Assembly: GCA_015069135.1 (NCBI GenBank)
Contig: SVJE01000007.1
Coordinates: forward strand, 1-64,000
Reading direction: 5' to 3'
Source: Oscillospiraceae bacterium
Lineage (GTDB): Bacteria > Bacillota > Clostridia > UBA1212 > SIG427
DNA length: 64,000 bases
The stretch's first letter is position 1. The number at the start of each line of letters is the position of its first letter. The translations under genes were made by a program, and so were the position numbers. Positions 61,250-64,000 of this stretch are shown here, piece by piece. The notes beneath the pieces were generated by a model, which searched no databases, was not told where the DNA came from, and was given only the letters and a program-made list of their open reading frames with translations.

Positions 61250-62872
61250 TTATGAATAAATGTCAACTCCACCAGCAATGTATTTTTTAACTCTCATATA
61301 GTCAGCAGCTTTCAACATTCCATCTCCTGTTACATCAGCAGCTTCAAGATATACTCCTGTAAGCAATTCCGGGTTAGCAATTGCACGCTTAATGCTCATA
61401 TAGTCAGCAGCTTTAACAAAACCATCACCAGTTACATCTCCCAAAATTACTATTTCTTTAATATATGTTTCTGAAGTAACTTTATTAGTAACAACAAGCT
61501 TCATGCCTGTACCTAACATTGTATCGGAAGAAACAGTTATATCACTTTTGTAAACGACACATTCAAAAGCATCACCAATAGAATTAGCATATTCGGTAAC
61601 AGAAGTCTTTTCTCGAATTGGCTGTTCTAACAAAGATTCATTAACATACACTATTTTAGCTGATTCCAAAGGTTTTATGTATTCATCTCCGTTATAACTT
61701 TTATACAGCTCAGCCCACTCGTCGCTTGTTCCACAAAAATATACAGTTTCAATTCTACAGCCATCAAAAGCGCCCCAACCTATTTCAGTTACACCCCGTG
61801 GAATTACTATTTCTTTTAAACCACTAACTGAAAATGTCTCGAAATCAATTTTAGTTATACTATCTGGAAGCACCACGCTTTTCAAGTCTGTATGACTGAA
61901 CGCATAACTTCCTATTTCTGTTATACATCTTGGTATCACTACACTGCTTAAACCGCTGCATCCATAAAATGCATCGTCTCCTATACTTGTCACACTACCA
62001 TCATCAGGTATAACACTATTTTTACAGCCTAATATTAATTTTTTACTGTCAGTCTCAATCAAACAATTTCCATCACTGTGATATACAGGGTTTTCTTGTG
62101 CTACTACAATACTTGTTAACCCCCTGCAGTGAATAAAGGCACCCTCTCCTATTGATATTACACTTTCTGGGATTGTTATGCTGGTTAAACCATTACATCC
62201 CCAAAATGCATTATTTCCTATACTTGTTACACTATTTGGAATTTTTATGCTAGTCAAGTCACTGCTTTCATAAAAAGTACCATTCTGAAATGCAGTATCT
62301 CCTATACTGGTTACAGGTATATCGCCAAATTCTCCAGGAATAATGATTTCAGTTTCCGTTCCGATATAGCTAGAAATTTCGCAATATGTATCATAAACTT
62401 TATAACATACACCATCAGTTGCTAAAAATTCCATTTCTGATATAAAATATTCGTTTCCCGAAGCAATATTTATTTTGTTCCACTGCTTGGGGTTGCCACA
62501 ATAATATACTGTAAACCATTCACAATAGCCAAATACATTATAACCAATATCTGTTACACTATCAGGAATTGTGATTCTTCTTAATTCATAACAATTCGAA
62601 AACGCATAATCTCCTATACTTGTTACAGCCACTCCGTTAATTTCTTCAGGAATGACGATTTTCGTTGCAGCTGAGTTACAACCTGTAATTTCACAATATG
62701 TATCATATAGAACGTACTCCAAACCATTTTCAAGAGTTTCCGCTGCCTGATTTTGATTCACAATTTCTGCCTGGACAGCTGAATTTACTTCAACATTTTC
62801 TGCAAAACAAAATCCATTACACATTCCAGTCATAAGACTCATAGTCAATAAAAATACAATTATTTTTCTCAT
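61250..62872 (-). CDS. secreted BspA-type leucine-rich repeat protein with C-terminal dockerin
   Basis: A 540-residue surface protein. The signal peptide ends near FCFAEN. About 12 BspA-type repeats (VTSIGDYAFSNCYELRRITI, VTSIGNNAFWGC, VTEIGSYAFSH-like) span residues 60-400. A type I dockerin lies at about 475-540, with the loop pair GDVTGDGFVKAADYMSIKR and ADVTGDGMLKAADYMRVKK. BspA-type repeats are commonly adhesins. The ribosome site AGGGGGA lies at 62880-62886. The only good promoter upstream is inside a segment flanked by 23-base inverted repeats and now faces the wrong way, so this gene may be phase variable and OFF here. Confidence 0.85.
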   Translation of the reverse strand: MRKIIVFLLTMSLMTGMCNGFCFAENVEVNSAVQAEIVNQNQAAETLENGLEYVLYDTYCEITGCNSAATKIVIPEEINGVAVTSIGDYAFSNCYELRRITIPDSVTDIGYNVFGYCEWFTVYYCGNPKQWNKINIASGNEYFISEMEFLATDGVCYKVYDTYCEISSYIGTETEIIIPGEFGDIPVTSIGDTAFQNGTFYESSDLTSIKIPNSVTSIGNNAFWGCNGLTSITIPESVISIGEGAFIHCRGLTSIVVAQENPVYHSDGNCLIETDSKKLILGCKNSVIPDDGSVTSIGDDAFYGCSGLSSVVIPRCITEIGSYAFSHTDLKSVVLPDSITKIDFETFSVSGLKEIVIPRGVTEIGWGAFDGCRIETVYFCGTSDEWAELYKSYNGDEYIKPLESAKIVYVNESLLEQPIREKTSVTEYANSIGDAFECVVYKSDITVSSDTMLGTGMKLVVTNKVTSETYIKEIVILGDVTGDGFVKAADYMSIKRAIANPELLTGVYLEAADVTGDGMLKAADYMRVKKYIAGGVDIYS

Positions 62873-62895
62873 TAAGCATTCCCCCTAAACCCTGT

Positions 62896-62918
62896 TAACA
62901 TAATTTCTATTATGTTGT
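62896..62918 (+). repeat. inverted repeat, left end of invertible segment
   Basis: A 23-base sequence beginning TAACATAA, centre TTTCTA, then TTATGTTGT. It is itself nearly palindromic (AACATAA / TTATGTT) around the asymmetric TTTCTA core, the layout of a tyrosine-recombinase crossover site. An exact reverse-complement copy lies at 63159-63181. Confidence 0.85.
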
Positions 62919-63085
62919 TAATAAGAAACAAATTTCAAAAGAACCTATCAGATAATATTCTTTTCTATAGAAAGTACATACATAATTAAATAAACCCTAC
63001 ATAAACTCTTTCATGGTAGATTTATTCTTTATGCCTAAATAAATCATGTACACAGTCAGAATACTTTTAAATTCTTTGTGCATAC

Positions 63086-63114
63086 TTGAATTTATCAATT
63101 TAGTGTGATAAAAT
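63086..63114 (+). promoter_or_regulatory. promoter inside the invertible segment, facing away from the surface gene
   Basis: TTGAAT (63086-63091) and TAAAAT (63109-63114) with a 17-base spacer, plus strand. It now points to the 3' end of the recombinase gene, on the opposite strand from it. I find no comparable leftward promoter in the segment. Confidence 0.7.
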
Positions 63115-63158
63115 TCTGCGTATTGTAAGAATATCTATTTCATGCAGATTATAGAATT

Positions 63159-63181
63159 ACAACATAATAGAAATTATGTTA
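63159..63181 (-). repeat. inverted repeat, right end of invertible segment
   Basis: Exact reverse complement of 62896-62918, with outer bases also partly matching. Lies 35 bases past the recombinase stop. Confidence 0.85.
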
Positions 63182-63215: not shown

Positions 63216-64000
63216 TCATATTATCAATCTCATACTCTCCATCTTTCTTCTATGCTCTTCACCTGTAGTAATGATATAAATTCTTGTAGTATTAATACTT
63301 GAATGACCTAATATATCAGCAAGTTTAGCAATATCTTTCTCTATACCATAAAAAGTTCTTGCAAAAAGATGTCTCAAATTATGGGGGAACACCTTTTCAG
63401 GATTAACATTGGCAGCTCTACATAAAGCCTTCATATCTCTCCATATATTACATCTATTCACAGGCTTACCTGCCTTTGTTATGAAAATCACACCTGATTT
63501 AATGTCAAGTCTCTTTGCATACTCTGACAGAACCTTACTTAATTCTCTGACGATTAATATAGTCCTGGTCTTACCTTTACACTGTACTACAGCTTTACCT
63601 TTACTAACTGCCTCTACTGTAATATATTGAAGTTCGCTAACACGAATTCCCGTACTACAAATAGTTTGAATAATCAAGTTTAATCTTTCATTACCTTTAG
63701 ATTTAGCTGTTGAAACCAATCGAATATATTCTTCTTTAGTCAGTTCCCTTTCTTCATTACAATAAACATTTCTTTGAATTTTGCATTGTTTGACACAACA
63801 ATCATTCCAACCCATAAACCTGAAAAAAGAATTTATCGATGCAATCATAGAATTAACACTTGTAACATTATATGATTCCAGCAGGCTGTTTTTGTAGGCA
63901 ATCACCATATTTTTATCAATGTTTTCACCACTGCTGAAAGCAACAAACTTTTTAACGTCTCTTATATACTTTTCAATTGTATTGTCACTTTTTTCTTCAT
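63216..64000 (-). CDS. tyrosine recombinase (site-specific invertase candidate), 5' end beyond window
   Basis: The frame stays open to the window edge, so the gene is partial. The residues before the first Met (EKYIRDVKKFVAF) are part of the N-terminal SAM-like core-binding domain. All catalytic residues are present: Arg in STGIRVSEL, Lys in CKGKTRTI, HNLRH (HxxR), His in LGHSSINTTRIY, and the nucleophile Tyr in RIYIITT. It is closely related in layout to XerC/RecV-type enzymes. Lying beside a pair of inverted repeats, it likely flips the 62896-63181 segment. It could also act on other sites or belong to a mobile element outside the window. Confidence 0.9.
   Translation of the reverse strand, partial: EEKSDNTIEKYIRDVKKFVAFSSGENIDKNMVIAYKNSLLESYNVTSVNSMIASINSFFRFMGWNDCCVKQCKIQRNVYCNEERELTKEEYIRLVSTAKSKGNERLNLIIQTICSTGIRVSELQYITVEAVSKGKAVVQCKGKTRTILIVRELSKVLSEYAKRLDIKSGVIFITKAGKPVNRCNIWRDMKALCRAANVNPEKVFPHNLRHLFARTFYGIEKDIAKLADILGHSSINTTRIYIITTGEEHRRKMESMRLII

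Follow-up and report, generated by a model that had tools for sequence, protein, structure and literature searches.

The window analysed here, a 64,000-nt stretch from the 1.9-Mb genome of an Oscillospiraceae bacterium (G000), carries near its right-hand end a short segment enclosed by inverted repeats and placed between a surface-protein gene and a tyrosine recombinase gene. A preliminary description, made from the sequence alone, had claimed exact 23-base repeats around 240 bases, each a near-palindrome with an asymmetric core, and had proposed an invertible promoter switch. The repeats (62896-62918 and 63159-63181) are indeed 23 nt each, 100% complementary and separated by 240 nt, and each has the near-palindromic form AACATAAT-TTCT-ATTATGTT with an asymmetric core, which is 4 nt long. 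This 20-nt unit occupies 62897-62916 in the left site, and the right site is its inverted copy with the core AGAA; the arms, which give the site the form ACATAAT-NNNN-ATTATGT in the window, are common to ~40 homologous loci. Two half-sites and an asymmetric core in each repeat are the form expected of a tyrosine recombinase site. The locus therefore has the inverted repeats flanking a short segment (62919-63158; unstranded, like both sites) that are looked for in an inverton, and a predicted promoter inside that segment whose position is conserved in homologues.

To the left lies the gene that would be switched (61250-62872, - strand), which encodes a secreted BspA-type leucine-rich-repeat protein of 540 aa with a C-terminal type I dockerin. 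Its start at 62872 is preceded by the ribosome-binding site AGGGGGAA (62875-62885, - strand), which stands immediately outside the left repeat, where the preliminary description had placed it. To the right, the recombinase gene (63216-64000 in the window, - strand) has its 3' end 34 bases beyond the right repeat; it crosses the window edge, and the contig contains the whole gene (C6 63216-64070), which encodes 284 aa. The protein matches PF00589 and an N-terminal SAM-like domain and has the full R-K-H-R-H-Y set (R143, K165, H230, R233, H256, Y265), so the earlier claim of an adjacent complete-motif tyrosine recombinase stands. It falls well below the NCBIfam equivalog cut-offs for XerD (123 bits vs 329.6) and XerC (111 bits vs 335), and it lacks the full-length homology to ~200-aa recombinases that defines the FimB/FimE family, the layout being similar and the protein different.

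The promoter within the segment (63086-63114, + strand) consists of TTGAAT at 63086-63091, a 17-nt spacer and TAAAAT at 63109-63114, with a TG ahead of the -10 element. Its end is separated by 46 bp from the 20-nt core site at 63161, and it points at the 3' end of the recombinase gene, away from the surface-protein gene on the - strand, as had been noted. The near-consensus match was likewise present as described, but by itself it is no better than chance: 2 kb of sequence held 9 consensus matches, compared with 11.4 expected from shuffles. What makes the promoter credible is that its position is fixed across the cassette family, even though it is weaker than in many relatives and the segment has weaker matches on the opposite strand.

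Only four places in the genome match the exact pattern AACATAATNNNNATTATGTT; they form two inverted pairs, and a backwards-read control gave none. The second pair spans 44598-44881 of contig C5, with its sites spaced 264 bp apart as in the window, and sits between a recombinase 68% identical to that of the window and another BspA/dockerin gene; the genome has four PF00589 genes, and both site pairs lie beside the two of them that adjoin switches. The arms are identical between the two cassettes and the cores differ (TTCT in the window vs GGTG on C5). The two segments align lengthwise, promoter included, only when both are turned the same way with respect to gene and recombinase, and both cassettes thus stand in the OFF orientation. 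In the scoring, the C5 locus (L008) came out as ON by a margin of 0.5 units, from an unanchored match; this alignment is the reason for counting it as OFF. Its repetitive cargo gene contains a run of unknown bases (L008 12671-12710), which splits the gene into two frames in the assembly.

As a correction to the first interpretation, the window switch is no one-off but belongs to a widespread cassette family with locus-specific cores. I found ~40 homologous cassettes in Clostridia with the order recombinase, site, segment, site, cargo, including in the named isolates Monoglobus pectinilyticus and Subdoligranulum variabile, and the site pattern matched in 26 of 391 class genomes. To avoid circularity, an unbiased scan of the same 391 genomes for paired sites enclosing 221-251 bases left both cores free. 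It returned 23 pairs in 19 genomes (control, 0), and the cores were reverse-complementary in all 23 pairs, against a chance of 1/256 for each. Among 38 complete loci there were 29 different cores; these loci were selected for matching cores and so provide no independent test of core matching. Strand exchange between the two sites of a pair would impose just this combination, cores that match within a locus and vary among loci. None of the 38 cores was palindromic, where 2.4 would be expected, which is not a significant deficit. In seven genomes with two cassettes (G000, G003, G015, G082, G134, G308, and G326) the cores differ within each genome, for which chance alone could suffice. A recombinase homologue at least 48% identical ends beside the first site in every locus kept, and nearly all loci with such a homologue have a second site, the exceptions being L038, which runs off a contig end, and L042, for which no partner was found. 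Sites without a recombinase were lone sites only and were taken as chance.

In 35 of the 38 loci (15% in shuffles) the highest-scoring sigma-A-type promoter reads outwards and is 24-52 bp away from an end of the segment, and a promoter score of at least 15 was reached in 20 of 38 loci, compared with 0.1% of shuffles. L028 and L039 have strong promoters in both directions. Homologues stand both ways, with the promoter directed to the cargo in ~14 loci and to the recombinase in ~24; homologous elements in both orientations are a prediction of an active switch. The window locus itself was not found inverted in the genomes searched, among which the one other genome of the same family was without sites, and no same-strain pairs were found for Monoglobus and Subdoligranulum, where the extra matches were cargo repeats. 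The assemblies of two relatives break at the base where the orientations would part: in G310 a contig ends one base past the site and overlaps the next contig by 77 bases, and two contigs of G378 abut at the site, their ends lying one base outside it. This is the pattern left by mixed orientations, though not proof of them. Contig ends within 600 bp of the recombinase were found six times on the switch side and never on the other (p 0.025), which is only suggestive.

Taken with the paralogue and the ~40 homologues, the invertible promoter switch, its dockerin-bearing BspA-type target and the OFF state in this assembly all gain support. The locus is very probably a self-contained phase-variation cassette in which a dedicated recombinase flips a 240-bp promoter segment and thereby switches the BspA/dockerin gene. 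The recombinase would bind the two inverted sites, each with arms of 7-8 bp and the 4-nt core, and the asymmetry of that core would make the outcome inversion rather than deletion. In the ON state transcription from the segment promoter would cross the left site and enter the BspA/dockerin gene, while in the OFF state, as assembled, it would run toward the 3' end of the recombinase gene. The adjoining recombinase likely inverts the segment, and I infer that the window copy flips in vivo and that expression follows segment orientation. As the core differs from that of the only other cassette in the genome, the two switches should flip independently.

Three other explanations have to be weighed against this cassette. 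Both copies in the genome are OFF, as they would be had the switch been active in the past and since become locked OFF in this lineage. Against this, both sites are still perfect, the intact recombinase retains every catalytic residue and the promoter is still in the segment, making a locked switch unlikely. A tyrosine recombinase beside short repeats, and one with 29-45% identity to phage integrases, could also be what remains of an integrated or excised mobile element, the sites being its relic rather than a working switch. I regard this as very unlikely, because the sites are inverted rather than direct, no mobile-element genes were seen beside them, and the order of recombinase, site, promoter segment, site, and cargo is kept across many families with cores that vary yet match within pairs. 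It is extremely improbable that the palindromic repeats serve a regulator as operator sites or terminator hairpins, with the recombinase as a coincidental neighbour: each site is palindromic and forms part of terminator-like hairpins in relatives, yet a binding site would have no need of an asymmetric core that varies from locus to locus but agrees within each pair, and adjacency to a recombinase is near-universal.

The fim switch of Escherichia coli is itself an invertible promoter element. The fimE-fimS-fimA arrangement (background in PMC2784873) shares with the window cassette a checked gene order, on a single strand, in which the recombinase gene comes directly before the switch region with its 3' end reaching it, an invertible promoter follows, and the gene of a secreted surface protein comes last. 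FimE, however, is a 198-aa protein of a different subfamily and 28% identical to the window recombinase over 79 residues only; fim has two recombinases where the cassette has one, and the sites differ. The preliminary description had likened the locus to switches flipped by RecV of C. difficile, which was right as to the type, a phase-variation switch, but the closest layout is that of fim. RecV switches resemble the cassette in their XerC/D-type recombinase, ~20-bp repeats and ~200-bp segments, whereas RecV acts in trans on several switches (cwpV, flg, and cmr) and the window-type cassettes each carry their own recombinase (PMC2784873, PMC9286219). The cwpV promoter, moreover, is outside its segment and that of the window inside. 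In the main-text passages of PMC11892184, inverton group 139 has 32 of its 33 members in Clostridia, nearly all near a tyrosine recombinase (group 35), and two cited elements of ~255 bp show orientation shifts in reads; judged by these features, the cassette family, with its site sequence ACATAATNNNNATTATGT, probably equals or overlaps this group. Those passages make no mention of dockerins, locus-private cores or split terminators. Searching papers for the site motif as a text string returned noise only. The kind of switch is already known, and the new detail lies in the cores and the terminators.

The genes downstream of the family's switches carry dockerin, cohesin, BspA-repeat, S-layer-homology, and SPFH domains, with further types including a SipW-type signal peptidase, a TetR regulator, and polysaccharide genes; judged from these predicted products, the cargo set is surface-biased. 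A protein search with the window cargo found relatives at 28-35% only. The window genome has eight cohesin and ~50 dockerin matches in its 1.9 Mb, pointing to a cellulosome-like system to which the window cargo may belong; a three-cohesin gene lies on contig C1 (54281-55558). The switch suggests that dockerin-bearing surface proteins are phase variable in such a genome, and none of the four papers found on phase variation together with the cellulosome concerns, by title or abstract, phase-variable cellulosomes. With about equal chances of being right and wrong, a wider reading would be that the family keeps one DNA-binding specificity (ACATAAT/ATTATGT arms) and a private 4-nt core at each locus, homogenised between its two sites by recombination, so that the several switches of one cell could invert independently of each other, that in this genome they would govern components of a cellulosome-like dockerin system, and that in one branch the flip would also make or unmake an intrinsic terminator straddling the site. 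With private cores matched within each pair, whether the switches act independently can be tested directly, and the site is a simple DNA signature for listing dedicated switches and their targets in unannotated gut Clostridia.

One branch of the family seems to add a split terminator: the invertible segment supplies one half of the stem and the fixed flank, which carries a T-run, the other, and the full stem would exist only in the OFF state. Where the cargo flank has a T-run (11 loci), the OFF hairpin, formed with the promoter-distal segment end at the cargo, is ~9 kcal/mol stronger than that of the other orientation (p 0.003), while in 25 loci without a T-run, the window among them, hairpin strength is the same in both orientations; a split terminator was looked for at the window locus and is absent. 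Such terminators at the cargo-side site were seen in L036, L043, L046, L079, L080, L081, L086, L089, and others, and are comparable in principle to cwpV, which has been modelled with a terminator formed only in the OFF state (PMC2784873). A mid-segment hairpin (GACCAATG..CATTGGTC) was considered as a shared terminator and rejected, as the window segment lacks it. Antisense transcription of the recombinase gene in the OFF state, as feedback on the state of the switch, is possible at the window and is not proposed as general because 21 of 36 relatives have a T-run directly past the site that could stop it.

Some loci depart from the basic plan. On plasmid pMM59_01 of Pusillibacter faecalis (L094), a 48% identical recombinase is followed just past its stop codon by quite different inverted repeats (GACAAAAACAACATTTCGT), which suggests a sister site specificity. 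Extra direct copies of the site with the same core, ~32-63 bp apart, make predicted three-site switches of L028, L032, L037, L038, L039, L047, L086, L087, and L092, and in L039 the spacer that separates the near copies reappears, inverted, in the flank past the far site, as though it had been moved.
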